The notes under the pieces were generated by a model. It saw nothing but the letters and a program-made list of their open reading frames with translations. It was not told the DNA's origin and did no database searches. A stretch of 37,867 bases of DNA from a virus. Position numbers and translations under genes: made by a program. Where the stretch lies: IMG/VR virus record IMGVR_UViG_3300031788_000051, positions 1-37,867 of that record. One strand, written 5' to 3'. Below, piece by piece: positions 1 to 32,537 of this stretch. Every line of letters starts with the position of its first letter. Position 1 is the first letter of the stretch.

Positions 1-330
1 AGGCGCGGGGAGCTCGTCGTGGATGATCCGGATGGCCTGCTGCGGCGTCTTCGAGTTCCGCAGCGAGACCTCCAGCGCGGTGATGGTGGAATCCTTCTGC
101 GCGCTGGTCTGGTCGCGCGCCTTGATCGAGTCCTGGGCGCCGTCGATCACCTGCTGCTGCGCTTCGACGATCTTCTGCTTCGCGGCGGCATTGGCTTCGG
201 CTTTAACGCGGGCTTCGCGCTCGAGTATCCAGCCGCGCACGAAGCACGCGCTGAGCGAGAAGACGATCACCGCGCAGAGGAAGATCAGCAGGTCGCGATA
301 GCTGAAGGTGGGTGTGGACTGGATGGTCAT
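1..330 (-). CDS. Spanin-like membrane coiled-coil protein (partial)
   Basis: The gene starts at ATG 330 and stays open for 110 codons to the window edge, so its C-terminus is missing. The ATG overlaps the lysozyme stop codon (ATGA), which implies translational coupling. A hydrophobic segment (residues about 13-30, LLIFLCAVIVFSLSACF) is followed by an Ala/Gln/Lys-rich, probably coiled-coil region (about 33-100). One N-terminal membrane anchor plus a helical periplasmic part, directly after an endolysin gene, is the layout of an inner-membrane spanin (lambda Rz). The assignment rests on position and topology, not on a recognised motif. It could instead be another small membrane protein. Confidence 0.55.
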   Translation of the reverse strand, partial: MTIQSTPTFSYRDLLIFLCAVIVFSLSACFVRGWILEREARVKAEANAAAKQKIVEAQQQVIDGAQDSIKARDQTSAQKDSTITALEVSLRNSKTPQQAIRIIHDELPAP

Positions 331-1417: not shown

Positions 1418-4285
1418 CTAATTTATCGCATAGCAAATCGCGCTAGTGTCGCCTGTGACAACTGTGTTAGTTGAGGAGAGAGAATTGATGACGAACGAAG
1501 TACCGGCAGTAACAGTCCCGATTGACGGGACTCCTATAGCCGTGCCTGACGGGCCGCAGTTGGTCAACTTATAGACGCAGTCAGTGCTAGGGGTGCACGC
1601 GCCAGAATAACTCACTGTCTTTGTTCCTGAGACGAGAAAAGTCTTCCCAACCAACGTATTGCCCCGTGTGTAGACGAACCAGTTGGAACCGATGTTGCCG
1701 AGAATCATGCTAGTGCCCGGCTGGATCACGCTTGGCGAAGTAAAGGTGCTGTTGGGGTCAAGCCAACTGGCACCGCTGCCCAAAGCTAGTGTTATGGCCG
1801 AACTGGTCGAGTTGTAGATGAAGTAGGCGCCGTTGGTCCCAATACTGGAAGGGAGGGTCAGCGTCCCGCCCGTCAGATAGATTGCCTGGTCGGCAGAGCT
1901 TAGGGTGTGGGCTCCATAGCTGGCTTGGGCGAGAATGTTCCCATTGAGAACAGAAGAAAACGTGGGGTTCGGATACGTGAGCCCGGTCGGCAGCGTCGTC
2001 GCGCAGCCCGGAACGCCGCTGCTATTCGTGACGATGACGCAGTTGTTTGTCTTGGCTATCGCCGAGGTCGTATTCAATGCGGAATTGTAGAAACCAGAGT
2101 TGGCTGCTCCAGCCAAATTGGATGCGGCGCCGCCTGAAGCTGCGGTGAGCTGCGAGTAGGTCACCGACGACCCGCTTGACCCAATCGAGGATACCGAAGC
2201 TGCCAGCAGCCAGGTTGTCAGCGCGTTGGTGGTGCCGGAGAGCACCTGCACAGCCCCGGAGTTGTTGATGTTGGTAGCGACGTTGTAGTTGGCGGCGCGG
2301 GTGAAGACGGGAGATATTGAGGTGGCTCCGACCGTCGTGGCCGTGTAGACGCCGTTCTGCGACGCGGTAGTCTGGTTCTTCAGCAGAACGCGCTGGCCGA
2401 TGGTGTTGATGGCGATGCCGTCGAGCGTGAAGGCTCCGGTGGCCGTGACGGTGAAGGTGTCTCCAGCGCCGCCGCCGACTTGAGCGTAGGTTCCAGTGAG
2501 GTTCGCGGTAGATGCAGCCAGAACAGCTTGAGCAGGGTTGGAGTTGGCGACGGCGGTGTCGGCATAATTTGTGGAGCTGCACTTCGTCGAACTGTCGAGC
2601 GCGGCTTGCGTCGTGCAGGTGGTCCCGTTTGGGAGCGCCGGAGTGCCACTAAGGCCCGCCGCGGTGGTGGCTGCCGGCACGGTGCCCGTCACCTGAGAGC
2701 CTGGAAGCGAAAGAGCGGAGAGCGTGACCAGCGTGCTGTTGGTCGTCTGCGTATCGGCCGCCGCGGTGGTGGCTGCCGGGACGGTGCCCGTCACCGCTGC
2801 GCCCGGGACGGCCGTGATATTCGTGCCCGCGATCGTCGGGGCGTTGGTGCAGGCAGGAGCTTGCCCTGCGCTGCCGGTGCCCGTCTCCTGAAGCACGCAG
2901 GGCGTGGTGCTTGTATTCGGCGCAACGTACCCGGTCACTCCGGGGGCGGTCTGGTAAGGTACTGACCCGGCAACGCCGCCGGCGATGTTCGCCGCTGAGG
3001 CTATCGTTGTGGGGCAGTCCGTTCCAGTGCTTTGGCATCCTGCGTTCGGGCCAAGGTAGACATGCGTGACGCTGGCGTTACCGAGCTGCACGGTGTTGGA
3101 GGCGGCAACCTGGGCACCGTAGCCAACCGCCGTGGTGTTGGCTAAGTTGCTAGAGGCTGGGGATGCGCCCGATCCGACCGCTGTATTGTTACTGCCGGTG
3201 ACGTTGCTCGCTAGAGCGGCTGTCCCGACACCGGTATTATTTGAACCCGTGGTGGTGGAGGTCAGCGCAGTCTCACCTACGGCAGTATTCGCGTTCCCGG
3301 TGGTGCCTCCGCTGGCCTCGTAGCCAACCGCCGTGTCGTTGTTTCCTGACGAAATGCCCGCACCAGCTTGTGAACCGATGGCTGTGTTGTCGTAGCCCGT
3401 CGTGTTGACATAGAGAGCGGCCAGCCCGACAGCGGTGTCATTGTTTCCTGAAGTGTTCAGGGGCATAACCGCTGCGCCGACAGCGGTATTATCGGCGCCG
3501 GTCGTAGTGGCTGCGGGGACGGTGCCTACATTTACATTGTTGACCCCATAGCCCGATACAGGCACACCAGAGATGCTGGCGTATCCTGAACCGCTGGTGA
3601 CGATGGTGTAGATTACATTCGCCGGCAGCGTTGTTGTCGGCGCTGTCGTGGGGTTGGCAATCAGCGCTGGTCCAGTGCCGGGCGGCATCGCCGACCCTCC
3701 TACCCACTCGCTGTAAACGACGCTCCAGCAAAATTGGGCACTTGTGATCCCTAAAGCGGAGGGAGTGAACGTGTTGACCATGTTGCTCGGCCACGCAAAC
3801 GTATAGCTCGCCGTCTGGTTGAGCTGAACATCGGTGCAGGCACCGGGCGCCCCAGTGGGGATCGTCGAGCTGGTCACATTGCAGGTGAGGTTCAGCGCGT
3901 TGGTCGTATTACCTGTACCGGAGAGTGTCTCCGAGGACGCGCAGACCATCGTATAAGAGGATGTCGCGCCAGCGGGAGAACAACTTCCCCCCACGGGGCA
4001 AGCCGTCCCATTGATTGAAGTGCTCGGGAGAGCCCAGCCGGTTATTCCACACACATACTGCGAGTTGGGCGTGGTCGCCGTATCGAGAAACGGCTGGTCA
4101 TAGTTGGCGGAGTTGCACGCGACGCCGAGCGAGGACGGTGTCCCCGCGCCGGAGAGCTTGGCCCAGCGGATGTCTGTGGCGGGATTGACCTGGGCGTGCG
4201 CCGGCGCGCAGAACGACGCGCCCATGCAAGCAGCAGCGGCGGCGAAGAGGAAGAGCTTACGAAGGATAGATGACGAGCGCGCCAT
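1418..4285 (-). CDS. Tail fibre / adhesin with signal peptide and NTAVG repeats
   Basis: This 955-residue protein is probably a receptor-binding fibre. The start at ATG 4285 has a strong AGGAG site nine bases upstream. The N-terminus looks like a Sec signal peptide: positive residues (RSSSILRK), a hydrophobic core, and an APAHA cleavage-like motif near residues 27-31. Residues about 262-400 hold repeats of the (N/D)NTAVG type, like the left-handed roll repeats of YadA heads. Residues about 600-720 resemble a common fibre domain (GDTFTVTATGAFTLDG, QRVLLKNQT, NGVYTAT). GTVPAATT peptides recur three times. The start overlaps the upstream gene by 29 bases. A signal peptide is unexpected for a virion protein, so it may instead be a lysogeny-expressed adhesin. 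Confidence 0.75.
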   Translation of the reverse strand: MARSSSILRKLFLFAAAAACMGASFCAPAHAQVNPATDIRWAKLSGAGTPSSLGVACNSANYDQPFLDTATTPNSQYVCGITGWALPSTSINGTACPVGGSCSPAGATSSYTMVCASSETLSGTGNTTNALNLTCNVTSSTIPTGAPGACTDVQLNQTASYTFAWPSNMVNTFTPSALGITSAQFCWSVVYSEWVGGSAMPPGTGPALIANPTTAPTTTLPANVIYTIVTSGSGYASISGVPVSGYGVNNVNVGTVPAATTTGADNTAVGAAVMPLNTSGNNDTAVGLAALYVNTTGYDNTAIGSQAGAGISSGNNDTAVGYEASGGTTGNANTAVGETALTSTTTGSNNTGVGTAALASNVTGSNNTAVGSGASPASSNLANTTAVGYGAQVAASNTVQLGNASVTHVYLGPNAGCQSTGTDCPTTIASAANIAGGVAGSVPYQTAPGVTGYVAPNTSTTPCVLQETGTGSAGQAPACTNAPTIAGTNITAVPGAAVTGTVPAATTAAADTQTTNSTLVTLSALSLPGSQVTGTVPAATTAAGLSGTPALPNGTTCTTQAALDSSTKCSSTNYADTAVANSNPAQAVLAASTANLTGTYAQVGGGAGDTFTVTATGAFTLDGIAINTIGQRVLLKNQTTASQNGVYTATTVGATSISPVFTRAANYNVATNINNSGAVQVLSGTTNALTTWLLAASVSSIGSSGSSVTYSQLTAASGGAASNLAGAANSGFYNSALNTTSAIAKTNNCVIVTNSSGVPGCATTLPTGLTYPNPTFSSVLNGNILAQASYGAHTLSSADQAIYLTGGTLTLPSSIGTNGAYFIYNSTSSAITLALGSGASWLDPNSTFTSPSVIQPGTSMILGNIGSNWFVYTRGNTLVGKTFLVSGTKTVSYSGACTPSTDCVYKLTNCGPSGTAIGVPSIGTVTAGTSFVINSLSSTNTVVTGDTSAICYAIN
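2654..2794 (-). repeat. Direct repeat inside the fibre gene
   Basis: A segment of about 38 bases at 2654-2692 recurs nearly unchanged at 2757-2794. Both encode VTGTVPAATTAA-type peptides. A weaker third copy lies near 3501-3530. The pattern suggests expansion by internal duplication. Confidence 0.7.
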
Positions 4286-5108
4286 GGTGATCTCCTGATT
4301 GCAGGGGTGTGGTCCAACTGAAGGCGTTGGCGGTGCTGAAGGTGTAGGCGGAGGGGTCGACGGGCGTATCGTTGCGAAACATCACCACCACCTGCAGCGG
4401 CGTGCCGGGGATGGTGTAGGCGTTGCTCGTGCCGTCGATGGCGCCGGAGATCTGGTTGGCGCCGGTCTGTCCGTTGGAGAGGTAGTGCATGACCCCCGGG
4501 CTCACGCCGGGAGGCCCCTGCGGCCCGGGGGGACCCATCTGCACGATGGCCTGCCCAGCGACGTTGGGGGTGAAGGTGTCGAGGCTGAAGACCGGCCCGC
4601 TGGGCTGCACCAGGCGCAGCACGTAGATGGGGACACCGACGGCGTTCGCGATGGTGATGCGATAGCAGATGTTCGCTGGCCGGGTGAGCGTCGTGTCCGG
4701 CACCACGCTGCCGGCCGGGATCGCGCCGGAGGTCACAGCCCAGCTCGCGGCCGCGGTAGTGATGGGGCCACCGGCCGCCGATCCCACCGTCGCGGTGATG
4801 GGGTGGTCGTTGCCGTCGGTGGGCTGCACGGAGACCGTCCCGTTGGCCAGCAGGATGCCGGTGTCATCCTGGATGTTGAGCGCGGTCAGCAGCGTGTAGC
4901 CCAGCGGCACGGCGACAAGCTGGACCAGGGCGCCGCTGACCGTGGCGTTGGCGCTGAGGGTGAGTGGGCTGAGGATGGTGATGGTCGCGGCGGAGGGCAC
5001 GCCTGCGCCGACCATGCGCTGACCGATCGCGAGGCCGACAATGGAAGACGGCGACGCGATGACGTTGCTGCCGCTGGTGAGCGTGCCTGTGATGACGACC
5101 GCTTGCAT
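4257..5108 (-). CDS. Tail fibre-associated protein with collagen-like segment
   Basis: This 283-residue virion protein lies between the tail tip and the fibre. Residues 5-65 form a module shared with gpL and the tube protein of this phage (SPSSIVGLAIGQ and LSPLTLSANAT). The middle looks like a beta-sandwich domain. A short collagen-like triplet run (GPPGPQGPPG, near residue 195) precedes a C-terminal domain ending in a beta-rich region (YTFSTANAFSWTTPL). Collagen-like runs in phage fibres usually drive trimerisation. The gene starts at ATG 5108, and its last 29 bases overlap the start of the fibre gene, suggesting coupling. Its role as an adaptor or short fibre is inferred. Confidence 0.7.
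   Translation of the reverse strand: MQAVVITGTLTSGSNVIASPSSIVGLAIGQRMVGAGVPSAATITILSPLTLSANATVSGALVQLVAVPLGYTLLTALNIQDDTGILLANGTVSVQPTDGNDHPITATVGSAAGGPITTAAASWAVTSGAIPAGSVVPDTTLTRPANICYRITIANAVGVPIYVLRLVQPSGPVFSLDTFTPNVAGQAIVQMGPPGPQGPPGVSPGVMHYLSNGQTGANQISGAIDGTSNAYTIPGTPLQVVVMFRNDTPVDPSAYTFSTANAFSWTTPLQSGDHHGALVIYPS
4914..5096 (-). repeat. Shared virion module, copy 1
   Basis: Encodes residues 5-65 of the collagen-like fibre protein. It aligns with copies at 9959-10138 and 17159-17335 around GLAxGQ, GxPxxxTI and LSPLTxSANAT. Nucleotide similarity to copy 3 is visible too: GTGGCGTTGGCGCTGA occurs in both on the plus strand. Confidence 0.8.
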
Positions 5109-5139: not shown

Positions 5140-8100
5140 TCAAAACGCCGGGACGGGCGACGTGATCGGGGCGCCAAATGCGCGCCCGTAAGTCGAGGGC
5201 GAGCCGTCGATCGCGACCTGGTAGCCGCCCGGTGTGAGCGGAACCCTTCCGTCCTGCTTGCAGAAGGCGTCGGCGAAGGGGTCGTACGCGGCCGACAGGA
5301 TGGTCTGCGGGAGAGTGACTGTCGTGATGGGAATCCCCGGCAGCGTGAGGATGCTGGCTGTGCCGGCCGGCGTGGTCGGCGTCGCGAGCTTGATGCCGCC
5401 GTTGACCACGTCGAAGTACAGGAACGCCCAGTAGATGGTGCCCGACGTCGATGAGAGCCCCCAGGTGTAAACCGAGCCGTTCTGCACATAGGTAATGCCG
5501 CCGTCAGGCCACAGGATCACGATGTTGGTCCATGCGATGTAGATGGTGTTCGAGCTGGGGCCGCTGAGGTAGGTGACTGAGCCTGTGAAGGTCGGCAGCG
5601 TGCTGCCCTGCACGCGCAGCCCGGTGCTGCTGCCGGTGGTGAACAGGTCGTCGATCTGGCCCCTGGCATCGATGTCTGCCCAGAAGCTGGGGACGGTCTG
5701 GCCGACGGCGGGGATCTCCAGCAGGAAGTGGCTCAGCGTAACGATGCTGCCCACCGGAATACTGAGTCCGCTGCCGGCGAACGACGCGGCCACCACGACC
5801 TGCACGGTGCCGACGGGGATGGTCACCGGCGCGGTGTTGAACCGCGTGAGCGTTGGTTGGATTCCGCTGAGCGGGCAGCTCACCGTCTGCGTGCTAATCG
5901 TGGCGCCGGCAGAGTTATTGAAGAAGATCGCCAGAACCACGTTGCCCACGTTGGGCGCGGTGGAGACCAGGCACGAGTCCTCCACGTAAGCCGAGAGCAT
6001 CAACACATCGCCCACCGCCCACTTCGACGGCTGCACCACCTGGAAGAGGAAGCCCGCGGCGGCGGTGAGTGCAGCACCGGCGACGGTGTAGAAGGCCTCG
6101 CCGTCGTTGCCGTCGTCCCAGGTGAGGGTGTCGCCCCCGCGCTGCGCGAGGTTCCAGAAGGTGAAGCCTGACGCGAAGTTCGAGCCCAGCAGCAGGTTCG
6201 CTGCGATGCCCACGGCTTCAATCGTCACCTTCGGCGCGGTGGTGAACGCCGCGTAGGTGTCATTCACGTCATAGCCGACGACATAGTACGTGACCGTGGT
6301 GAGCGGAACCTGCTGCGCCTGCCACGTCGTGGGCGCGCCCGGCAGCCGCGCGACCATCTGAGGCAGACCTCCGGCGCCGTAGCTCGCATAGATGGCCACG
6401 CCCGCGGTGTCTGGGCCGTTCTGCCAGCTCAGGCTGGCGAAGCTCACGTTCGAGCCCAGCACCCACTGGAAGATCTCCGTGCCGGTGAGGTTGGTGACGC
6501 CGGGGTTGGTCACCACCACCGCCGAAGTCTCGCCGATCAGCGGCGTGCCGATGTCGTAGCAGTCGGCGTCATAGTCAATCCAGTCGATGGTGCTGCGCAG
6601 CTCGCTGGCGCGGCGGATCTGCATCACGCGCACCCACTTCACCGCTCCGGAGACGCCGTAGATGTAGAGCGCATAGTCGTCGGGCGTCTGCTCCAGTGGC
6701 GTGGCCAGGACCAGCGCGCCGGTCACGGGATCGATGCCGCTTACCGCGACGGTCTCCAGCACGTCGGTGTCGAAGAGCGCGAAGCTCTGCCCACCTGCAG
6801 GTGTAAAGCCCGTCGCCGGCGTCACTGTGATCTGGTTCACATTCGACGCGGTGATGACGCAGTCCTCGCCGTTCAGCACCGCGCGCGTGACGCGGTTGAC
6901 ATTGTCGAACGCGGAGAGCGTGAGCACCCAGGCGCCCGACGTCGTGGAGACGCTGCTGACCGTGCCCGCGTAGCGTTGCACGGCCGCGTGTTGCACCATC
7001 ACGCTGTAGCTGGTGCCGCCGACGAACGGGATGTCGTCGCGGTCCAGCAGCAGCCGCGTCGTCGTCGAGCCGGGGAGCGTGCGGCCGCCGAAGCCCCACT
7101 GCGGAACGTCATGCTGCAACGCGATCACGTTGAACGGCCGGCAGGCGATGCCATCCGTGTCGGTCTTGAAACTCCCCGAGCGCAGCAGGAACTCTGTGCT
7201 CCGCTGCTTGAAGCGCGCGAAGTGCCACGCCTGCGCCGGGATGGTGATGCCCTTGCCGCGGATGCGCGTGTTCTTGATGATGACGCCCGCGTCCTGCTGC
7301 GCGGGGTCCATGTAGACCAGCGGGTTGTCCTCCTTGTAGGAGCGTGTGGAGTCCGCGAACTGCACCTCGATCTGGTTGCTGCGGTCGGCGAGTTGCAGCC
7401 AGATCTCACTGAAGCTGTCCTGCAAGATGTTGCCGACGGTGAACATCTGCACCGGCGCCGCGACGGCCTGGTCGGTCGCCACGCCGTAGTCCAGCCCCAG
7501 CGGCACGATCGCCGCGCGCGACATTGCCGTGACCACGCCGAGCTGCTCCCACAAGTTGGACTCGTTATCGAAGACGCCGTTGAAGACGTGCAGCCGGATG
7601 CTGTTGCCGTTGCCGTCCGGGACCAGCGTGTCGTTCAGCTCCGCCCACGCGATCCACTCGTCGATGTAGCGCTCGAGGTTGGCCGCGGCGATGCCCGCGA
7701 AGCCGGGACCTCCAGCTCCCGCGCCGCCGCCGTAGAGATCGTCGAGCATCATGTCGGCCGAGACGCACGCCGGGTTGTCTTCCTCAAAGGCCAGCAGCGC
7801 CGCGGGCATCACGCCGGTGTCCACAGAGCGCAGACCGTGCTGCACCAGCGCGGTGACGTTCAGGCTGGAGCCGTTGAGCTGGCTGGTGGCCAGCGCGCGG
7901 ATGCCCAGCAGGATCAGGTTGGGGTAAGCGAGATCGAGCAGCGCGATCTCATTGACGCTGTGGACCCACATATCCTGCCCGATGGTCGGTGACCAGTTGT
8001 CGCCGAAGGGCACATTGTCATGCAGGCGCGTGCAGCCGTACTTGGTGATGCGGACGTCATAGATGCCCGGCGCCAGCCCGAGGATCTGCGTGCGGTTGTA

Positions 8101-9387
8101 GCACGGCGTGGTCTGCGCGGCGACGAAGTCCTGGTACCCGGCCGTCCAGTCGATCACATCGACATAGTTCATGTTCAGGTCGAGGAGCTGCCACTCGCCC
8201 TGCACCGTGTGCGAGCTGGTGGCGTGGTTGCCGTTGGGCTGATAGGTGGTGACGGTCTCGGTCGCGGTGTAAGGGTCGCCGGGGTTATGCGGGCCGTTGT
8301 CCAGCGCGTAGACCACACCGGAGCTGGGCGGCAGGTCGGTGGCCACCGCGCCCCACGCGTAGGGCAGGTAAGCCGAGCCGTCGAGATGATAGTCGTAGAT
8401 GCTGGCCGTGGTGCGCGGCTGGAGCACCGGCAGCCAAACGCCCGAGCCATGCAGCGAGTACTCGACCAGGTAGGTGATCACCGCGGGGATGATGTTGCCG
8501 TCATTGGTGTTGACGAAGATGCCGTCCGGGAACTGGATGTCCACCTGCAACGCCTGGGTCAGGTCGCCGGTTCCGGGTACCACCACCGGCACGCCGGCGA
8601 GACACTGCGTGTCCTGCGGATAGCCGTTGACGATGCGGTTGAAGTTCGAGATCTCGGTCTGGGAGTTGGTGCCGAGCCGGACGTAGTACTGCACATTCTG
8701 GTAGCTCGAAATGTCCTTGCCGTTGATCTGGATAGAAGAGAGCGCGCGCGCCGGCCCAAAGCCGAAGCACACCAGCACGTTGATGTACTGGTCGCTGCCG
8801 GCGAGGTCCGTGAAGCTGGAGATGATATTGCCGCCCCAGCGGAAGGTGCCATTGCCTTTGGGGATGACGACGCCCGACTGCGCCAGCGATCGCGGACCGT
8901 CAGGATCGTAGCTGGCCGAGGTTCCCTTGTTGCTGGGCTGCGATGAGCCGAACGCGGAGAGGATCAGGCTGCCCGCGATGCTGACTGCGCCGCCCAGCAA
9001 CGCGGAGGTCATCGCGACGGTCAGGCCGAAGAGGGCCACGCCGGCGCCCGCGGTGAGCACCGTGGTGACCACAGCCGCGGCCATGATGGCGATCGACGCC
9101 AGCGTGCGCAGCAGGCTGCCGCCGGCAACGCCCGGCACGATGACGATGGTGCTGCACTCCGGAGGCGTAATCTCGGTCCACATCGAGCGGCCCCAGACGT
9201 GGCCGTTGAGCGAGACGGTGACGTTCCGCGCCCAGGTCTCGTAGCCTTCCTTCGGTGCCGGCGCGAAGCGCAGCTCCCAGTCGTCGCGCATCAGCTCGTC
9301 GAGCGTGTGCTGCCAGCCGTCGAGCGTGCGGCGCTCGGTGCCTTCGCTGGGCTGGAGCGGATTGGTGACGCGGATGATGGTTACCAT
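5140..9387 (-). CDS. Tail tip protein J with gpI-like N-terminus
   Basis: This 1415-residue protein is the host-specificity hub at the tail tip (lambda gpJ family). I start it at ATG 9387 (VTIIRVTNPLQ); the frame is open further upstream, but there it only shadows the NlpC/P60 gene. Residues 1-200, with a Gly/Ala-rich hydrophobic stretch (93-145) and ASYDPDGPRSLAQSG, resemble lambda gpI, which is otherwise missing. A central gpJ-like body follows (about residues 200-1000, including QYINVLVCFGFGPA), then fibronectin-like and beta-rich domains. It overlaps the gpK gene by seven bases. Position directly after gpK fits gpJ. Confidence 0.85.
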   Translation of the reverse strand: MVTIIRVTNPLQPSEGTERRTLDGWQHTLDELMRDDWELRFAPAPKEGYETWARNVTVSLNGHVWGRSMWTEITPPECSTIVIVPGVAGGSLLRTLASIAIMAAAVVTTVLTAGAGVALFGLTVAMTSALLGGAVSIAGSLILSAFGSSQPSNKGTSASYDPDGPRSLAQSGVVIPKGNGTFRWGGNIISSFTDLAGSDQYINVLVCFGFGPARALSSIQINGKDISSYQNVQYYVRLGTNSQTEISNFNRIVNGYPQDTQCLAGVPVVVPGTGDLTQALQVDIQFPDGIFVNTNDGNIIPAVITYLVEYSLHGSGVWLPVLQPRTTASIYDYHLDGSAYLPYAWGAVATDLPPSSGVVYALDNGPHNPGDPYTATETVTTYQPNGNHATSSHTVQGEWQLLDLNMNYVDVIDWTAGYQDFVAAQTTPCYNRTQILGLAPGIYDVRITKYGCTRLHDNVPFGDNWSPTIGQDMWVHSVNEIALLDLAYPNLILLGIRALATSQLNGSSLNVTALVQHGLRSVDTGVMPAALLAFEEDNPACVSADMMLDDLYGGGAGAGGPGFAGIAAANLERYIDEWIAWAELNDTLVPDGNGNSIRLHVFNGVFDNESNLWEQLGVVTAMSRAAIVPLGLDYGVATDQAVAAPVQMFTVGNILQDSFSEIWLQLADRSNQIEVQFADSTRSYKEDNPLVYMDPAQQDAGVIIKNTRIRGKGITIPAQAWHFARFKQRSTEFLLRSGSFKTDTDGIACRPFNVIALQHDVPQWGFGGRTLPGSTTTRLLLDRDDIPFVGGTSYSVMVQHAAVQRYAGTVSSVSTTSGAWVLTLSAFDNVNRVTRAVLNGEDCVITASNVNQITVTPATGFTPAGGQSFALFDTDVLETVAVSGIDPVTGALVLATPLEQTPDDYALYIYGVSGAVKWVRVMQIRRASELRSTIDWIDYDADCYDIGTPLIGETSAVVVTNPGVTNLTGTEIFQWVLGSNVSFASLSWQNGPDTAGVAIYASYGAGGLPQMVARLPGAPTTWQAQQVPLTTVTYYVVGYDVNDTYAAFTTAPKVTIEAVGIAANLLLGSNFASGFTFWNLAQRGGDTLTWDDGNDGEAFYTVAGAALTAAAGFLFQVVQPSKWAVGDVLMLSAYVEDSCLVSTAPNVGNVVLAIFFNNSAGATISTQTVSCPLSGIQPTLTRFNTAPVTIPVGTVQVVVAASFAGSGLSIPVGSIVTLSHFLLEIPAVGQTVPSFWADIDARGQIDDLFTTGSSTGLRVQGSTLPTFTGSVTYLSGPSSNTIYIAWTNIVILWPDGGITYVQNGSVYTWGLSSTSGTIYWAFLYFDVVNGGIKLATPTTPAGTASILTLPGIPITTVTLPQTILSAAYDPFADAFCKQDGRVPLTPGGYQVAIDGSPSTYGRAFGAPITSPVPAF

Positions 9388-9836
9388 GGCGCCGCCAGTT
9401 CCTCGGGCACGTAGTACCCGATGACGCGCCGCTGCCACACTGGCCGTAAGAGGCTTTCCGTGCAGGCCGCGCCGATGCCCCGCTGAGTGTGCAGCATGGT
9501 CCAGGCGTCGAGCATCGTGCCCAGATGTAGCTCGCCGCCCATCATGCGCAGCAGCACCGCGCAGCCTGGTACCGCCGTCGGGATCTCGCGCGCGGGGCCC
9601 AGGATGCCTGGATGCCCTTCCGCGCCCGGCTGATAGTGCTGGTGGAACTCCTCGATGGTTGAAGCGAAGTCCGGGACTTTTCTGCCCTGGCGGCGCTGCA
9701 TCTCGATCGCCAGGCCGAGGCAGTCGAAGGCCTCGGGGCCGCGACCCGCGTCGCGGTAGGGCTTGCCGATGAGGTCGGAGTAGAGACGGGCAGAAAGACG
9801 ACGAGATTGTGTTTTTTCGGAAATTTGCTGGCTCAT
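9381..9836 (-). CDS. Tail assembly NlpC/P60 peptidase (gpK-like)
   Basis: A 151-residue NlpC/P60-family protein. The catalytic cysteine motif is AFDCLGL (C39); H104 in ELHLG is the likely catalytic histidine, with H116 as a possible third polar residue. In lambda-like phages this protein joins the tail tip during assembly and may cut peptidoglycan at infection. The N-terminal gpK Mov34/JAB domain is absent, so only the peptidase half is present, as in many siphoviruses. Its ATG overlaps the gpL stop codon (ATGA), and its end overlaps the gpJ start by seven bases. Confidence 0.85.
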   Translation of the reverse strand: MSQQISEKTQSRRLSARLYSDLIGKPYRDAGRGPEAFDCLGLAIEMQRRQGRKVPDFASTIEEFHQHYQPGAEGHPGILGPAREIPTAVPGCAVLLRMMGGELHLGTMLDAWTMLHTQRGIGAACTESLLRPVWQRRVIGYYVPEELAAPW

Positions 9837-10711
9837 GCGACACCTGCCGCGGCCGCGCCGTTGGAGTCAATGCCCGGGAAGCCGCCGAAGCGCAGCAGGT
9901 TCGCGTGCGCCTGGCAGCCGGTTGAGCCGTCGATGGTGTGCGCGCAGGTGGTGAAGGCGATGGTGATCGTCTTGCTGCCCGAGGCCGTTGCGTTCGCGGA
10001 CATCGTCACCACGCCGCCGGTGATGGAGAGGATCGTGGTGTTGGCAGGGATGCCGGCCGCGGCCAGCGGCATGCCTACTGCTAGCCCGGTGACGCTCGCG
10101 GGAGTGAACAGCGGCGAACCCGAGGCCAGCGTCGCGCTGAAGGGCGCAGGGTCCACGTAGCCGCACTGGAGGCCCTTGTACTGCCAGATGCAGTAGTTTG
10201 GCCGGTACATGAACAGCGGGAAGAGCCGCCGCAGCGGGCTGCACGCTCCCAGCTTGAAGGTCACCAGCTTCACGTCGCAGGTGGTTTGCAGGACGGTGAA
10301 GGCCAGCGCCAGCTCGGGCTCGCCGGCGGGGTTGGCGGCGTTCACCACATAGAGGTTCAGGTTCGCGCCGACGACGCCACCGTAGGCCTCAATGGTGGTC
10401 TGCAACACGCGCATCACGTTCGAGACCTTGATGGAGGACTCCGGATAGCTGCCCTGCGTCGTCGACGTCACATCGCCGAGCTCGAAGTTGAAGGGCGTGT
10501 AGAGCTGCGGGCCGTTGCCGTCGCCGGCGTCAAAGGTCACGGGGTCCAGGTTGCGCACCAGGCGGACGTGCTGCTGCGTCGCGCCGGGGTTGGCGGCGCC
10601 GGGATAGACCAGGTCCAGCAGCAGCAGCCAGGGCTCGCCGCTGGCGAGCTTGTGGCGCTCCTGGTTGGCGACCACCGAGAGCAGGCTGAACATGGGCCGC
10701 GTGGTGCTCAC
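9833..10711 (-). CDS. Minor tail protein L with Fe-S cysteines and an inserted module
   Basis: This 292-residue protein matches the lambda gpL tail-tip family. The N-terminal two thirds are the gpL fold. The C-terminal domain has the expected cysteines C174 and C183 (spacing 9, as in lambda), C256 and C266, and ends in LLRFGGFPG, typical of gpL. Lambda gpL binds a 4Fe-4S cluster through four such cysteines. Between C183 and C256 sits an extra domain (residues 192-251) shared with two other virion proteins here. The start is GTG 10711 with GGAGG six bases upstream, next to the gpM stop. C157 is an additional cysteine. Confidence 0.85.
   Translation of the reverse strand: MSTTRPMFSLLSVVANQERHKLASGEPWLLLLDLVYPGAANPGATQQHVRLVRNLDPVTFDAGDGNGPQLYTPFNFELGDVTSTTQGSYPESSIKVSNVMRVLQTTIEAYGGVVGANLNLYVVNAANPAGEPELALAFTVLQTTCDVKLVTFKLGACSPLRRLFPLFMYRPNYCIWQYKGLQCGYVDPAPFSATLASGSPLFTPASVTGLAVGMPLAAAGIPANTTILSITGGVVTMSANATASGSKTITIAFTTCAHTIDGSTGCQAHANLLRFGGFPGIDSNGAAAAGVA
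9959..10138 (-). repeat. Shared virion module, copy 2 (inside gpL)
   Basis: Encodes gpL residues 192-251 (SVTGLAVGMPL, AGIPANTTIL, VTMSANATASGS). It lies between the second and third cluster cysteines. It is the most divergent of the three copies. Confidence 0.75.
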
Positions 10712-12488: not shown

Positions 12489-15134
12489 CTAGCTTGACTG
12501 CCGGAAGGCCTGTGAGATCGGGCCGCCCTGCGCCAGGTCGGTGAGGACCGTGTGCGAGATCCACGATCGGCCTTCCTCGTCGTAGTTCACCTGGGGCGGC
12601 TGTGCCGTCACCGGCTGCGAGCTCTGATTGATGATGTTCTGCGTGATGTTGGGCGCGCCGCCGCCGCCGCTCTTCGCGAGCTGTGTGGTCAGTGAGCTGG
12701 GTACGATGGTCCCCGGGCCCTTGGGCATGAAGAGCTCCGGCCCCTGCTCGCCGACGATGCTGGGCCCGGTGGGATCGCCACCCGAGGCGAAGCCCGGCAG
12801 GTCCATGCTGGCGAACATACTGTCCGGCACCTGCGGCACACCGCCGCCGGCGCCGCCGTTGAAGAGCCCGGTCAGCAGCGGCGTGAGGAACTTCTGGAAC
12901 GCGAGCTTGATAGCGAGCTGCGTGATGTCCTCCTCGATGCCCTGCGCCATCTTGTGGAAGCTGTCCTTGCCGCTCTCGCTGGCGCGGGCCATGCGCTCGG
13001 CCATGGACTCCACGCCCTGGGCGACGTCCTCGCCGATCTTGGCGCTGCCCTTGTTGCTGGGCGTGTTCATCTCATCGAGCTGCGCGTGCAGCTCCTTCGA
13101 CTTCGCGAGGTACTCGCCGCCGAGCACCTTCGCCAGCGCGTCGTAGGCCGCGACGAGCTGCTGCAACTGCTGGGCCTCGGCCCTGTTGAGCGCGTTGATC
13201 TCGGCGGTGGACTCCTTCTTCAGCCGCGGGTCTTTGGCGGCGGCATCGTTCAGCCGCTGCACGGCCGCGCGGTTGGCTTCCTCGCTCTGCTCGATCTGGC
13301 GATTGATGTCGGTGATCTGCAACTTCTTCGCGGCCAGCTCGCCGGCGTCGCGGATCTGCTGCGCGGCCGCGGCGGATCCACCTTCGCGCGTGACCTTCTG
13401 CGCTTCAAGTTCATGCTCACGCTGTAGCAGCGCAATCTGCGCGGCCGTGCCGTGCCCGCGTTCCTTCTCCAGCTCCGCCGCAGCGCGCAGGTTGGCCAGC
13501 TCGGCCGCCGCGGCGCCGGAAGTGACCTGCGCGTTGTAAGCAGCCTTCAGCTCGTTGCGCTTGGCCTCGTTCTCCGTGAGCTGCGCGCCGACGGCCAGCA
13601 TCTCGCGCTGCGTGTTGTACTCTTCGGCCGACGTACCGGTGCTGTCACGCTTCAGCGTCTTGTCGCCGTGCTGTTTCCCCTGGAGGGCTGCGAGGTCGTT
13701 GTACTTTGAGTTCAGCCCGTCGTGCTCCGTGTCGAGCTCGTCGAGCTGGAGCTTGAGCTTCTCCGCGTAGAACTCCTGGTCGGACATCAGCAGTTGCTTG
13801 TGGTGCGACTCCAGCTCCGCCAGCTCCTCCTGGTCGAAGGCCTTGCGCGCATCGGCGGCTGCCTTGGCCTGCTCGGCAGCGTAGGCCTCGGCCGCGCGAG
13901 CGACGCCATCTGTGGACTTGCCTTTGCCGCCCTGGTGCTGCTGATCGAAGTCGTCGGTGCCGGTGCCGCCAGGCTTCGGCCGCTTCATGGCCTTGTTGCC
14001 GTTGGCCAGCGTGATGACGCCCTGGTCGCCGCCGTCGAGCCCCATGGCGAGTTTGTTGGCGAAGGTCTGGTAGTCAGCCTCGGCGTCCTTGATGTCCTGT
14101 AGAGCCGCCTTCTCTCCCGCGAGGGCGTTGGTGTTGTCCGCGCGGTATTGGCTGCGCGAGGCGGATCCGATCCCCAGCATCGAGTCGAGCTTGCTGGCGT
14201 CGGCGGTGCCGAGCTGCCCCAGCGCGACCCACTCGTCTTTAGCCTGGCGCAGGAACTTCACAAGATAGGCGGCCGCGTTCGCGACGCCGAGCAGGATGTT
14301 GCCCATGTGCTGGCCCATGGTGACAAAGCCGTCGCCTGAGCCGGTCACGCTGGCGATGGCCTGCTCCAGCTCCAGCAGCGCGGGCTCCAGCCCCTCGGTG
14401 ATGCCCAGGCCTGCGCCGCGCAGCGCTCCCTCCACCTTGATCGTCGCGGCATGGAGGGCTTCCATCTTCGCGATGCCCTGCTCGTCGAGTACCAGGCCCA
14501 GCGATTCAGCCTCCGACCTGAAGCCCTCGATGCCGGCGCGCCCTTGATTGAGGATCGGGATCAGCGCCAGTCCGCCCTTGCCGAAGAGATCGACGGCGGA
14601 AGCGGCCTTCAGCGGCCCGTCGGGCAGCTTCTGGAAGCGGTCCGCGACCAGGCCGAGCATCGCGTACATGTCGCCGCCGGTCTTGCGGACGGTTTCCTGC
14701 GAGATGCCGATCCGCGCGAACGCCTGGACGGCCGGCTTCGATCCCTCGTCGGTGTTGCGGATCTCCGTGCTGAATTTTTTCGCGCCCCTGGTCAGCGCGT
14801 CGAAGCTCACGCCGGTGGAGTCGGCCATGTACTTCAGCACCGAGAGGTTCTCCGTGCTGATGCCGGTCTGCTGGTGTAGATGCCCCAGCTCCACGCCCAG
14901 CTCGACCGAGCCGCCGACCATCTCCTTGAGGCCGTCGATCGCCTCGCGGATGCCCATGTAGATGCCGACATATTCGAGCGAGTGCTTGATCCGCTCCATC
15001 GACTCGCTCATCATGTCGGCGGTGCGAGAGCCCTGCTCGCCGGTCTGTGCGAGCTGCTCGCGCACCATCTCCAGCGCCGCCTTCGCGCTGGCGCCGTCGC
15101 CTTCAATACGGATAACTATCCCTCTACCAGCCAT
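12489..15134 (-). CDS. Tail tape measure protein (gpH-like)
   Basis: This 881-residue protein sets tail length and is ejected with the DNA. The N-terminal part carries tape-measure motifs (GMSVELGVEL-like region, STGVSFDALTRGAKKFSTEI, LFGKGGLALIPIL). Hydrophobic patches near residue 285 (GNILLGVANAAAYLVKFL) could insert in membranes. Residues about 400-700 are a long charged coiled coil rich in Ala, Gln, Glu and Lys. The C-terminus has the common GFASGGDPTGPSIVGEQGPELF motif seen in many tape measures. ATG 15134 follows the gpGT stop immediately. At roughly 1.5 angstrom per residue it would specify a tail of about 130 nm (inference). Confidence 0.92.
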   Translation of the reverse strand: MAGRGIVIRIEGDGASAKAALEMVREQLAQTGEQGSRTADMMSESMERIKHSLEYVGIYMGIREAIDGLKEMVGGSVELGVELGHLHQQTGISTENLSVLKYMADSTGVSFDALTRGAKKFSTEIRNTDEGSKPAVQAFARIGISQETVRKTGGDMYAMLGLVADRFQKLPDGPLKAASAVDLFGKGGLALIPILNQGRAGIEGFRSEAESLGLVLDEQGIAKMEALHAATIKVEGALRGAGLGITEGLEPALLELEQAIASVTGSGDGFVTMGQHMGNILLGVANAAAYLVKFLRQAKDEWVALGQLGTADASKLDSMLGIGSASRSQYRADNTNALAGEKAALQDIKDAEADYQTFANKLAMGLDGGDQGVITLANGNKAMKRPKPGGTGTDDFDQQHQGGKGKSTDGVARAAEAYAAEQAKAAADARKAFDQEELAELESHHKQLLMSDQEFYAEKLKLQLDELDTEHDGLNSKYNDLAALQGKQHGDKTLKRDSTGTSAEEYNTQREMLAVGAQLTENEAKRNELKAAYNAQVTSGAAAAELANLRAAAELEKERGHGTAAQIALLQREHELEAQKVTREGGSAAAAQQIRDAGELAAKKLQITDINRQIEQSEEANRAAVQRLNDAAAKDPRLKKESTAEINALNRAEAQQLQQLVAAYDALAKVLGGEYLAKSKELHAQLDEMNTPSNKGSAKIGEDVAQGVESMAERMARASESGKDSFHKMAQGIEEDITQLAIKLAFQKFLTPLLTGLFNGGAGGGVPQVPDSMFASMDLPGFASGGDPTGPSIVGEQGPELFMPKGPGTIVPSSLTTQLAKSGGGGAPNITQNIINQSSQPVTAQPPQVNYDEEGRSWISHTVLTDLAQGGPISQAFRQSS

Positions 15135-27651: not shown

Positions 27652-27867
27652 TTACGTGAAGAGTTTCGGCTGGCCACTTCCGGCGATGATGAGCCGCTCG
27701 ACCACCTGCGTCATCGATTCAGGGCGTCCGTCGTTGCGCAAACGCGCCTGCTCAATCAGTTGCTGCTTCTGTTCTGGGCGTAACCGGAAGTTCATCAGGA
27801 CTCGGCGTCGCGGCAAACCTGTTCGTTGCGCTGGCGCAACCCCTGTCGATCTGAGGGGGGCGCTCAT
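27652..27867 (-). CDS. Ribbon-helix-helix regulator
   Basis: A 71-residue protein starting at ATG 27867. Residues 24-64 (LMNFRLRPEQKQQLIEQARLRNDGRPESMTQVVERLI) have the beta-strand, helix, turn and helix pattern of Arc/MetJ-type DNA-binding dimers. The N-terminal 20 residues are basic. It diverges from the SWIM-domain gene and is the first gene on the minus strand before the terminase operon, so it may regulate either promoter. Confidence 0.7.
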   Translation of the reverse strand: MSAPLRSTGVAPAQRTGLPRRRVLMNFRLRPEQKQQLIEQARLRNDGRPESMTQVVERLIIAGSGQPKLFT

Positions 27868-27948
27868 ATCTCGACTCTAGTCCTTATGTGCGCGGTTTTT
27901 GCTCAAATCGACGCTCCGATGCCACGATTCCCGCCGAGGCAGACATCG
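27868..27948. promoter_or_regulatory. Divergent intergenic region
   Basis: The space between two divergent genes, so at least two promoters are expected. No consensus -35/-10 pair was convincing on either strand. A GAGGC site (27937-27941) serves the plus-strand gene start at 27949. Confidence 0.3.
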
Positions 27949-28566
27949 ATGGCGAACTTCCCTTCCCGTCCCGACTGGCGTCGCAAGCGGCCGGCGCCGC
28001 GCAAAGCTGCAGGTGCTCCACTTTCGCTCAGCGAGAACATCGTCTGGAAGCGCATCGTCGAGCCACGCGAGCGGTATCGGATCGTCTATCGTGATGGCGA
28101 CAACGTGATGAGTGACCGCACGGTCGAGCTACTAAAGATCGGCGAGTTCAGTCACAAGATTTACTTCGGCGTGATGCACGCCGGCATCTTCAAGACGCTG
28201 CGATCGGACCGCATCGTCAGTGTCGTCGAGCAGCTCACCCAGGGCCACGAACCCAGCATCCGGCCGCAGCCGACTTACTCGACGCAACTACCAGGATTCC
28301 CGCTGCCCAACGCGGTTTTCAAGATGCCGACGACAGCGGTGAGTAACAAGACGTGGACGGTCGATCTGAACAAATACACCTGCACCTGTCCTGAGAAGCG
28401 CATCCGCAGCGGCTTTGGCTATGAGAGTGGGCAGCTGGGTTTCGTGTGCCCTCACATGGCGAAGGCCATCCTCACCTACCTGCCTAAAAGCGCTGAAGGC
28501 TGGTCGCAGGAGCTACTGATCTTCCTCCGCGACACCACGCGCATCCACATCGACAATCTCACTTAG
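27949..28566 (+). CDS. SWIM zinc-finger protein
   Basis: A 205-residue protein (ATG 27949; ATG 27919 in the same frame is possible). The C-terminal half has a SWIM finger: C145, C147, C167 and H169 (TCTCPEK and FVCPHM), preceded by the typical WTVDLNKY strand. SWIM fingers bind DNA or proteins, often beside ATPases or transposases; this one is alone. The middle (RYRIVYRDGDNV to GIFKTLRSDRIV) is a small beta domain also found at the C-terminus of the gene at 34589. It is the only plus-strand gene in this stretch. Its 3' end overlaps a small convergent gene by 54 bases. Confidence 0.8.
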   Translation: MANFPSRPDWRRKRPAPRKAAGAPLSLSENIVWKRIVEPRERYRIVYRDGDNVMSDRTVELLKIGEFSHKIYFGVMHAGIFKTLRSDRIVSVVEQLTQGHEPSIRPQPTYSTQLPGFPLPNAVFKMPTTAVSNKTWTVDLNKYTCTCPEKRIRSGFGYESGQLGFVCPHMAKAILTYLPKSAEGWSQELLIFLRDTTRIHIDNLT

Positions 28567-29842: not shown

Positions 29843-30060
29843 GGACGCACCCCCGCCTTCGCTGCCGATAGCTTCATCACATCGTTCTTCGTCGCGACCT
29901 TGAGCATCTCCTCGGGCGCATAGGGCACCACGCGCGCCGGCAGACCAGCGGCGACCGTGCGCTGATAAGCGTCGGCCGCCTCTGAAGTCAGGAAGCCCTT
30001 CACTGCACTCCAGGTCAGGAGCTTTGAGTCGCGATACTCGACCACGAAGAGTCTCCTCAT
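29839..30060 (-). CDS. Small hypothetical protein between ParA and ParG-like genes
   Basis: A 73-residue protein starting at ATG 30060, overlapping the parA stop codon, with its own stop overlapping the next ATG (both ATGA). Sequence MRRLFVVEYRDSKLLTWSAV, then LTSEAADAYQRTVAAGLPARVVPYAPEEM, suggests a small alpha/beta fold. Strict coupling implies it is made in step with ParA and the ParG-like protein. Confidence 0.65.
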   Translation of the reverse strand: MRRLFVVEYRDSKLLTWSAVKGFLTSEAADAYQRTVAAGLPARVVPYAPEEMLKVATKNDVMKLSAAKAGVRP

Positions 30061-30677
30061 CGCGCACCTGCCTTGAGTTCGTGCCCGGCGGCTTCGTAGG
30101 CAGCCCACGCGCGCTCAGCCTGGCGGTCGTCGACGGCGTCCACGATCAGCCCTTCGCCCGCGGCCTTCTCGAAGGCCTTGAGCCGTGGGATCTCTGCTTT
30201 GAATACCGGTGCGCCGATCGAGCGCAGCAGCTCGCGGAGGTCCGCTGCCTGGCGCGCTGCGTCCGGAGCCACGCGCGTAAGCAGCACTTTGTAGTTGTCG
30301 ATCTTGAGCTGCTGCAACGCACGCACCGTCTGCCCCAGCCCGTCAGTGTCGAGAGCGGATGGCACGGCGGGAATCACCAGCAGGTCGCAACCCTCGGCCG
30401 CGGCTTCGAGATCGGCGGCGCTCGGCCGCTGCCCGGTGTCGATCACGATGTGCGGATACTCGCGCGCCAGCTTCGCAGCCATATCGATCGGCTCGACGCG
30501 CAGAGGGAACGCGCCGGCTTTCGCGCGCTGCGCCCAGGCCGTGGCGTTGCGCGTGGAGTCGCCATCCAGCAGCAACGCCGGCTTGTTTTTCGAGAGTTGA
30601 TTGAGGAAGGCGGCCGCGTGGACCGCGGTGGTGGTCTTGCCCACGCCGCCTTTGTAACTCGCTACGGTCAGGATCAT
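30057..30677 (-). CDS. parA: ParA/ParF-type partition ATPase
   Basis: A 206-residue ATPase, the length of ParF from plasmid TP228. The deviant Walker A KGGVGKTT lies at 9-16 with the signature lysine K9; switch regions follow as LLLDGDS and HIVIDTGQR. No N-terminal DNA-binding domain is present, so it is the small (type Ib) class that pairs with ribbon-helix-helix partners. TAGGAG precedes ATG 30677. It would position or segregate the replicon on the nucleoid. MinD/Soj-like roles cannot be excluded. Confidence 0.88.
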   Translation of the reverse strand: MILTVASYKGGVGKTTTAVHAAAFLNQLSKNKPALLLDGDSTRNATAWAQRAKAGAFPLRVEPIDMAAKLAREYPHIVIDTGQRPSAADLEAAAEGCDLLVIPAVPSALDTDGLGQTVRALQQLKIDNYKVLLTRVAPDAARQAADLRELLRSIGAPVFKAEIPRLKAFEKAAGEGLIVDAVDDRQAERAWAAYEAAGHELKAGAR

Positions 30678-30724
30678 GTTGGCTCCTAAGTGCTCGGGGT
30701 TGATGCTCGGGAAAAAGGAACTGC

Positions 30725-30756
30725 GGGTGCCTGGGTGCCCAGGCACCCACGCTCAT
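30725..30756. repeat. Octamer array A4
   Basis: Units GGGTGCCT, GGGTGCCC and AGGCACCC, then the degenerate unit ACGCTCAT, which contains the stop codon of the HerA-like gene. It lies 48 bases upstream of parA, where ParF-type systems keep their centromere. Confidence 0.9.
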
Positions 30757-32537
30757 AGAAACAAAACCTCCGCGTTGGCGCGCGCCGTGCCGGCGCCTGT
30801 AGTGATGAGGCCAGCGGAGCGCAGGAGGCTGAGGTAGTCGTCAAAGGTTCCGCTGCGTTGCATGCCCGCCAGTTCGGCGAGTTTCTCGTAGACGAGAGGT
30901 TGTCCACGCTGGGCGACCAAAACCTCTAGCAGCACCTTTGACTTGCCGCGCAGCTTCGGCATCCAGAGCGCGAGAGCCTCCTCTGTGGTAGTGGGGGGAG
31001 AGGGCGCCGTAGTGTCGAGGCGACGCAGACCTTCCTCGGTCGCATACCAGAGCCCGTCGACGAACTGGACGCAGCCAGATCTCTTGAGGAGAGATTTGTA
31101 GTCGTCAAACGTCCCACTGCTGCGCTTCATGCCGGCCTGCATGGCGACCTGTGCTGGGGTCAGCCCAGCCGGATACATGCCGACGCAGGCCGCAAGCATC
31201 GCCATGCTCTTGCCGCGGAGCTTTAGCTCGCCGTCGACGGGCGGTGGCGCGGATGGCGCGCGGCGCGGGACAGGTGCCGCATGGACGGGCTGGACGATCG
31301 GGGCAATGGGCGTAGCGAGATACCTGGTCGGTGGCTGCTTTGACGGGACCGGCTTGACCACACCCTCGGTCGCGAGCGCAGCGAGGCCGCGATCGCACAG
31401 CTCCTTCATCGAACCTAGAATGTTGCCGACCGAGGTCAGTTTAGCTTTCACGCTCTCGGCCTGCTGCTGCGCGGCTTCTAGATCAACCTTCGCCTGGTCG
31501 TAGAGCGCGGCCTTCTCCTCCAGGTCCTTGATGTGCTTTTGGAGCTCCATGCTGGGCTTGCCTCCTTTGGCGACTTCTTTTTCGAGTGCTGCGATGCGCT
31601 GCTTGAGGAACTCCGGCGACTCTTCGCGCGCGCGCTTCACGCTGTCTGCGATCTTCTGGCCCAGCTTCGCAATGTCGATCTGCGCGAGGATCTTCGGGAC
31701 GATGGCCCGCTCTCCCGGCTTCGGAGTAGCTCCGGAGTTGAACGTCTCGCGCTTGCGTATCTCCACGCGCTGCGCGATGCCGAGCGGCGCTGAGGCAACG
31801 AACGCCACGCCCACCGGCAGCGATGGCTGCTCGGCGTAGACCTGGGCGGCGAACTCTTTCGTCGTCTCGCTCTGGAGCCAGTTCTGCACCGGCCGGAGAT
31901 CGTGGGGCGCGCTCATGCGCAGCACGGTGAGGATGTCCACCTGGCTCAGCACGTCCCAACTGAGCGATGCGGAACGCTGGCTTATCATCGTGAAGCCCAC
32001 GCCCTTGATGCCGCCCTGCTTCACCAGACGACTGACGGCACCCAGGCATTTGATCTGGAGCTTGCTGCCGCGCTGGGGAGCGAAGGTGTCGGCCTCGTCC
32101 ATGAACAGGTGCATGGCGTTGCGGTTGATGCGGAGCAGCTCGCTGCACAGGTCCATGACGAACTGCACCTGCTCCTCGGTGTGGAAGTTGCCGATGTCGA
32201 AGATGGCGGAGAAGCCATGCTCGACTAGCGCGGTAGCCATCGCCTTGCCCGCGCGGTAGTCCAGCGGCGCGTCGGCGTGGTCCCCGCCGAAGACGATGAT
32301 GTCGAAGCCGGCCGACCTGCCGTCGGCGCTGGAGCGCAGTCCCCACCACGCCGAGGTCGGATCGATCACCGCGATCTGCTGCTTGGCCTTGAGCATCTCC
32401 TCGGCCTCTACGGAACCGGTGTAGCTCTTGCCGGAACGCTTGCGCGCGAGGATGGCCTGCGTGTACGTCACGAGACTCAGAGGCAGAGTGAACGGCTTGC
32501 GATGACTTCCGGTGGTGCCGATGGTCAGTTTTTCCAC
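30753..32537 (-). CDS. HerA-type ATPase with coiled coil and duplicated C-terminal domain
   Basis: A 594-residue protein. The N-terminal ATPase has a P-loop LARKRSGKSYT (30-40; the first Gly of GxxxxGKS is Ala31) and Walker B HLFMDEAD (143-150), typical of HerA/DUF87 pumps. A coiled coil spans about 300-385 (IAALEKEVAKGGKPS, QKHIKDLEEKAALYDQ). After a proline-rich linker, two similar 68-residue domains follow (about 438-505 and 527-594), each with KLRGKS and a SGTFDDYxSLLxxxG core, probably winged helices. Start GTG 32537, with GGAGG eight bases upstream. Its role may be DNA translocation, partition or interference; none is shown by context alone. Confidence 0.8.
   Translation of the reverse strand: MEKLTIGTTGSHRKPFTLPLSLVTYTQAILARKRSGKSYTGSVEAEEMLKAKQQIAVIDPTSAWWGLRSSADGRSAGFDIIVFGGDHADAPLDYRAGKAMATALVEHGFSAIFDIGNFHTEEQVQFVMDLCSELLRINRNAMHLFMDEADTFAPQRGSKLQIKCLGAVSRLVKQGGIKGVGFTMISQRSASLSWDVLSQVDILTVLRMSAPHDLRPVQNWLQSETTKEFAAQVYAEQPSLPVGVAFVASAPLGIAQRVEIRKRETFNSGATPKPGERAIVPKILAQIDIAKLGQKIADSVKRAREESPEFLKQRIAALEKEVAKGGKPSMELQKHIKDLEEKAALYDQAKVDLEAAQQQAESVKAKLTSVGNILGSMKELCDRGLAALATEGVVKPVPSKQPPTRYLATPIAPIVQPVHAAPVPRRAPSAPPPVDGELKLRGKSMAMLAACVGMYPAGLTPAQVAMQAGMKRSSGTFDDYKSLLKRSGCVQFVDGLWYATEEGLRRLDTTAPSPPTTTEEALALWMPKLRGKSKVLLEVLVAQRGQPLVYEKLAELAGMQRSGTFDDYLSLLRSAGLITTGAGTARANAEVLFL

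Follow-up and report, generated by a model that had tools for sequence, protein, structure and literature searches.

Our results suggest that the fibres of the phage studied here, a virus of soil bacteria, and of many related viruses, mature outside the cell interior, which is the usual site of their construction. The window, i.e., the whole stretch of DNA analysed, is a complete IMG/VR record of 37,867 bases. Behind the central tail fibre gene J, it encodes a fibre-type protein, P0001, that opens with a Sec signal peptide and, as far as its sequence can tell, is very probably exported. Tail fibres determine host range, and tailed phages assemble in the cytoplasm, which is also the assumed site of fibre assembly. 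The preliminary description had pointed out that a genuine signal peptide on a tail-fibre-type gene clashes with cytoplasmic virion assembly, and both parts of this statement are supported by our data. Judged by its genes for terminase subunits, portal, head, major tail protein, tape measure, L and J, the phage is a lambda-like siphophage, with the following genes surrounding P0001:

327-1214, minus strand: probable endolysin (weak lysozyme/endolysin matches), encoded downstream of the fibre gene; a membrane segment lies at its N-terminus
1418-4285, minus strand: P0001, signal-bearing fibre-type gene, 955 residues (matching a PHROG tail spike family over residues 314-408)
4257-5108, minus strand: P0002, signal-less short tail protein of 283 residues, with an N-terminal post-J domain and a collagen-like GPPGPQGPPG stretch
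5140-9870, minus strand: J ORF, central tail fibre (PHROG 31, E 6.5e-75)
9833-10711, minus strand: minor tail protein L (Pfam PF05100)
12489-15134, minus strand: tape measure protein, without cysteine

The order behind J is P0002, the P0001 fibre gene and the probable endolysin gene, and the 3' end of P0002, for which a single-sequence scan found no relatives, overlaps the start of P0001 by 29 bases (4257-4285). A programmed frameshift fusing P0002 to the fibre, which would turn the signal into an internal segment, was considered and set aside; it would need a +1/-2 shift, and no classical slip site was seen by reading. Mis-binned host DNA was ruled out, as terminase, portal and head genes lie in the window along with those for tape measure and J, and a search of the genome collection with two conserved patterns gave no relative of the P0001 module described below. 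Elsewhere in the window, the ORF at 1-330 (minus strand), which has an N-terminal membrane segment and a long helix, looks spanin-like by eye. Similarly, the ORF at 30057-30746 (minus strand) has a start, MILTVASYKGGVGKTTTAVHA, that appears ParA-like by eye and lies beside an ATPase-like ORF of 594 residues (30753-32537), a pair that may indicate a plasmid-like prophage.

Within and just upstream of P0001, we distinguish these elements:

4292-4296, minus strand: ribosome binding site AGGAG, with a 6-base spacer to the ATG
4193-4285, minus strand: Sec signal peptide, residues 1-31, with rule-based predicted cleavage at APAHA/Q (the slash marking the cut)
3758-4039, minus strand: fibre module with five cysteines, residues 83-176 (its signal-less aligned relative L010 has zero cysteines)
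3062-3346, minus strand: NTAVG-type head repeats, residues 314-408 (PHROG 4636 tail spike, E 6e-14)
2144-2650, minus strand: fibre module, residues 546-714, common to 26 viral loci and PDB 9efk 'orf22'

The reading frame runs from an ATG at 4285-4283, the earliest start codon in frame, to a stop at 1418, and the AGGAG site six bases 5' of the ATG bears out the earlier claim that it fixes the start. The basic region, hydrophobic core and APAHA motif described at the same time also proved accurate. The N-terminus reads MARSSSILRKLFLFAAAAACMGASFCAPAHA up to the predicted cut and QVNPATD behind it, with an n-region of charge +3, a subsequent hydrophobic core, A-H-A at positions -3 to -1 and Q32 at +1. 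By rule, it thus combines the basic n-region, hydrophobic core and small -3/-1 residues of a textbook Sec/signal peptidase I signal with the +1 glutamine of the Q rule. The signal-peptide prediction that had been recommended as a check took the form of a custom rule-based score, applied at the first start codon of each ORF. It was matched by 6 of the 221 window ORFs, with P0001 reaching the top score (36.0), followed by a plus-strand ORF at 27826-28566 (34.0); none of the other four comes close in score. As a background, 34/612 ORFs in J-containing viral loci scored at least 30, a figure that contains genuine fibre signals as well as membrane anchors.

The assignment of P0001 to the tail fibres and spikes is based on its position in the tail operon behind J and on its fibre/spike sequence modules. 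Residues 554-705 match the PDB 9efk chain 'orf22', present there in 18 copies (E 1.3e-15; profile A2, E 3.7e-24), and the module at residues 546-714 recurs in six cultured phage records (E down to 5e-8), five of them annotated as tail fibre and one as hypothetical. The signal was absent in all three cultured-phage records examined that carry this module. The NTAVG repeats resemble the YadA head by motif. Residues 32-82 gave no family match in Pfam or PHROG, and a Pfam scan of the whole protein at E 0.05 returned 0 families and hence no recognised surface anchor.

Among viral loci, the signal is a nearly constant companion of the 546-714 module. The IMG/VR scan yielded 26 loci, from which the 5'-cut L028 was left out and to which the window was added, and 25 of the resulting 26 assessable ORFs have a signal by rule; a stricter assignment leaves 24 ORFs, window included, with a signal in 23. 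The signals of L039 and L024 (114 and 108 codons past the first start, respectively) were caught only by a freer rule, which also gave false matches inside the module (L026, L036, L041), and L036 has only a weak candidate by eye. The loci include near copies (L017/L018, L021/L023). The N-termini of the module ORFs are mostly unrelated, suggesting that the rest of the sequence was swapped, with the signal either retained or gained anew, and Q is usual at +1; for P0001 and L048, BLASTP found no homology between the N-termini. In several of these phages, two to four large signal-bearing ORFs stand in tandem (e.g., L029, L042). The fourth of four in L029 (8959-16428) encodes 2489 residues, 78 of them cysteines, and gives Kelch and Ig-like matches. 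A scan of 18 signal-less ORFs near such arrays in six loci identified head proteins (L018, L032), a tail-fibre match (L025) and a marginal one (L019). PHROG 31, representing J, was found in 0/8 module-relative contigs tried, indicating that those phages have other tails. A search of 84,980 bacterial and archaeal species genomes, using two conserved patterns only, found no module relatives.

A second line of evidence comes from phages whose J protein is related to that of the window. In 24 rows, one of them the window, the J proteins are at least 49% identical. Of these, 15 have a cleavable-signal ORF behind J by rule, and L067, which the rule misses, was accepted by eye; seven have no signal, and one contig ends behind J. 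This tally leaves uncounted the membrane-anchor-like matches of ~230 residues in L046, L049, L157 and L171 and includes a 236-residue ORF with a cleavable signal in L174. In rows with more distant J proteins, most first post-J ORFs lack a signal, and on the J tree the signal trait changes at least four times. A conserved post-J domain, TASNIQDxxGxxLAxGTLxVxPTDxND, opens the signal-less fibres and directly follows the cleavage site in the signal-bearing ones. Six of its columns hold cysteines in 12, 12, 11, 11, 11 and 11 of 13 signal-bearing rows, as opposed to 1, 0, 3, 0, 0 and 0 of eight signal-less rows, so that signal-bearing domains contain three additional, probably disulfide-bonded cysteine pairs. 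The rows were hand-picked (23 with and 8 without a signal for cysteine counts, 13 and 8 for the domain columns); L059 and L159 are truncated by the end of their contigs, L058 was omitted because it nearly duplicates L054, and L051, L052 and L174, which have no post-J domain, were excluded. In L059 and L067, the second half of the domain is lost and the first cysteine pair alone is retained. An AlphaFold model of the domain (pLDDT 82, pTM 0.76) places C81/C100 and C113/C121, two of the pairs, on adjacent hairpin strands. In the domain tree, the signal-bearing rows form nearly one clade, which also includes, on a long branch, the signal-less fibre of Acidobacteriaceae bacterium ZG23-2. The signals of L158 and L159 are 40% identical and their mature parts 80% (dN 0.15, dS 1.61), a divergence pattern by which the mature domain is under purifying selection. 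Profile and fold searches with the post-J domain gave weak matches only, with E 0.001 reached by 0/342 in the PDB and 0/241 in BFVD. GDSL hydrolase and beta-helix domains occur in two of the signal-bearing fibres (L054:9611-12220 and L158:11634-14261).

The cysteines of the signal-bearing proteins are also unusual in number and spacing. P0001 has 20 of them behind the cleavage site, mainly in short-range pairs, an arrangement as extreme as that seen in 11/20000 random placements and 302/20000 gap shuffles. In the strict signal set, which comprises 36 ORFs from all viral loci and leaves out rule-signal ORFs without a +1 Q, the cysteine number is even in 31 (P 6e-6); among the 261 signal-less ORFs that have at least two cysteines, it is even in 137 (P 0.23). 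For 27 signal ORFs, the neighbour pairing share is 0.208, where the null gives 0.531 (P 4e-7); for 66 others, it is 0.513, where the null gives 0.566 (P 0.19). The median cysteine density per 1000 residues amounts to 19.1 in signal ORFs compared to 9.1 in signal-less ORFs, a set that includes mechanical ORFs. There are exceptions on either side: L157 has 18 cysteines and no signal, and the L183 and L184 fibres carry a signal but lack cysteines altogether, so that disulfides cannot be the sole reason for export.

The residue following the predicted cut bears on the identity of the host. With cleavage sites picked without use of the +1 residue, Q occupies this position in 33/58 signal ORFs from the module loci; for the J loci, it does so in 10/24 rule matches, among which there are membrane anchors. 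The corresponding figure is 18/46 in 360 kb of Acidobacteriaceae bacterium ZG23-2 (G009, 18 stretches, L131-L148) and 0/11 in 50 kb of E. coli. A search with J profiles identified two bacterial genomes, ZG23-2 and a Desulfarculales MAG, and the J proteins of the window and of the ZG23-2 prophage are 36% identical. Given the +1 Q habit common to the viral loci and ZG23-2, the host of the window phage is probably an acidobacterium, which is more likely than a member of the Bacteroidetes. The preference in Acidobacteriaceae itself resembles the Bacteroidetes Q rule.

Export signals are also found on fibres of other lineages. In L127 (a Desulfarculales prophage), L183 and L184, a signal precedes an ordinary (M)AQHDYVI-type fibre start, with cuts placed by motif at ANAS/QNDYVIS, ALAS/QHDYVIA and AVAA/QHDYVIN, respectively, or possibly one residue earlier. 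The alignments with PHROG 29834 begin at position 2-3 of the family and at residues 33, 22 and 21 of these proteins, and Pelagibacter phage fibres start one codon ahead of their P0004 match. The L183 fibre lies behind J (PHROG 31, E 9e-121) and has a C-terminal Gp10_C tail domain. Behind the signal-bearing fibre genes of L183 and L184, there are ORFs (L183:10138-13028, L184:6661-8487) that by eye resemble sugar-transfer enzymes, and modification of fibre or host glycans is a possible role. L075 and L106 each contain two nearby ORFs with a common start domain, the first signal-less and the second signal-bearing. In Bradyrhizobium phage ppBdUSDA122-1 (L191:1935-4288, OP596612), the gene for a tail protein is followed by two successive fibre ORFs, WAX24264.1 and WAX24263.1, each with a signal ahead of an ordinary fibre N-terminus. 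One of them is annotated as a tail fiber protein; by eye, each has a cysteine pair at a site without cysteines in canonical fibres. None of five canonical contrast fibres (L181, L182, L192-L194) carries a signal.

Taken together, these observations are most readily explained by a pathway in which P0001, made from the tail operon as a protein of the tail-fibre class, would be delivered to the periplasm by the host Sec system, cut by signal peptidase I at APAHA/Q and folded there with disulfides among its 20 cysteines. The mature fibre would then most likely be held in the periplasm and join tails once lysis mixes periplasm and cytoplasm. We infer the individual steps, i.e., export, cleavage, oxidative folding, trimer formation and virion attachment at lysis, from the conserved and swappable signal, the host-like +1 residue, the paired cysteines, the tail-gene context and the virion-type domains behind the cut in relatives. 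Late joining appears feasible, since finished fibres of other phages, such as the P22 tailspike and T4 fibres, join particles in vitro. However, the post-J domain of the window belongs to the signal-less P0002 rather than to P0001, so that we infer tail attachment of P0001 from its position and modules. We consider the full sequence of export, oxidative folding and joining of virions at lysis about evenly balanced. Somewhat more tentatively, tailed phages of several lineages may complete their virions outside the cytoplasm, with fibres that are exported, cut, disulfide-bonded and added at lysis.

The main alternative, which we consider less likely, is that P0001 is exported without ever becoming part of the virion. 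It would then be a secreted protein built from borrowed fibre modules, such as a receptor blocker, a decoy, a matrix adhesin or a polysaccharide-acting protein, and would act extracellularly near lysis or against superinfection. The arrays of two to four large signal-bearing ORFs in single phages are seemingly more than one tail needs, relatives have beta-helix and GDSL hydrolase domains as well as Kelch and Ig-like matches, and a candidate for the virion fibre exists in the signal-less post-J protein that comes first in the window, in L062 and in L068. Yet the domain right behind the cleavage site is the start domain of signal-less fibres and under purifying selection, and no ORF of more than 500 residues other than the signal-bearing one lies downstream of J in the examined stretches of L054, L056 and L063.

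The two readings offered by the preliminary description fare less well. According to one, the fibre stays in the cytoplasm, its hydrophobic N-terminus masked in the trimer or, as we would add, by fast folding. This idea agrees with the established cytoplasmic assembly of virions and with the cysteine-less fibres of L183 and L184, but it gives no reason for a host-like +1 Q, for even and paired cysteines or for the independent re-appearance of signals, be it on unrelated N-termini or with the cut at the canonical N-terminus; we regard it as very unlikely for these reasons. A mere chance hydrophobic N-terminus was ruled out by the signals of the module ORFs, the +1 Q, the cysteine columns, the even counts and the pairing. 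The other reading, a host-surface adhesin made in lysogeny, for which the lambda moron Lom would be a model, is highly improbable. Lom is likewise a signal-bearing protein encoded behind J, and an integrase-like ORF was seen by eye downstream in L047. There is no positive evidence for such a role, though: P0001 lies in the tail operon behind J and overlaps the upstream tail gene, it has no recognised anchor (0 Pfam families), and it is a large fibre-type protein rather than a small barrel.

If many soil phages indeed export their fibres, new models will be required for superinfection and receptor blocking as well as for the timing of assembly and for disulfide stability in soil, and it would be a mistake in annotation to mistrust a signal peptide because it stands on a phage structural gene. 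On the more tentative reading given above, signal-bearing and signal-less fibres would be exchanged as cassettes, and the assembly compartment itself could evolve. Phage ppBdUSDA122-1, as a named phage, brings the question to a culturable soil bacterium. Our search of the open literature, from which most subscription journals are missing, turned up no description of a tail fibre with a signal peptide; the nearest case is that of the Porphyromonas gingivalis phages treated below.

Several known systems share individual features with P0001. Trimeric autotransporter adhesins of the YadA type combine head-type NTAVG repeats with a signal peptide, as does P0001; they differ from it in their C-terminal membrane anchor, for which the Pfam scan (E 0.05) gave no counterpart, and P0001 is part of a phage tail operon. 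Lambda Lom is a small outer-membrane barrel, whereas P0001 has 955 residues and fibre modules. Phages of Porphyromonas gingivalis carry signal-bearing genes of unknown function that follow the Bacteroidetes Q rule (PMC10367356) and thus resemble P0001 in having a signal whose +1 Q echoes a host habit; the parts of that report available to us name spanins and capsid proteins but not tail fibres, and the phages and hosts differ. The endolysin Lys44 of phage fOg44 is a signal-bearing protein exported by Sec in the lytic cycle (PMC6116005), and thus a tailed-phage protein with a Sec signal like P0001, although it is a lysis enzyme and not a fibre. Known post-J fibres of lambda-like siphophages differ from P0001 in that those checked have few cysteines and no export signal (0/3 module-bearing cultured phages, 0/5 canonical fibres), but the tail fibres and spikes of this group (PHROG 4636, 4492 and 29834; PDB 9efk orf22) are like P0001 in gene position and fibre modules and like its relatives in their N-terminal domain.
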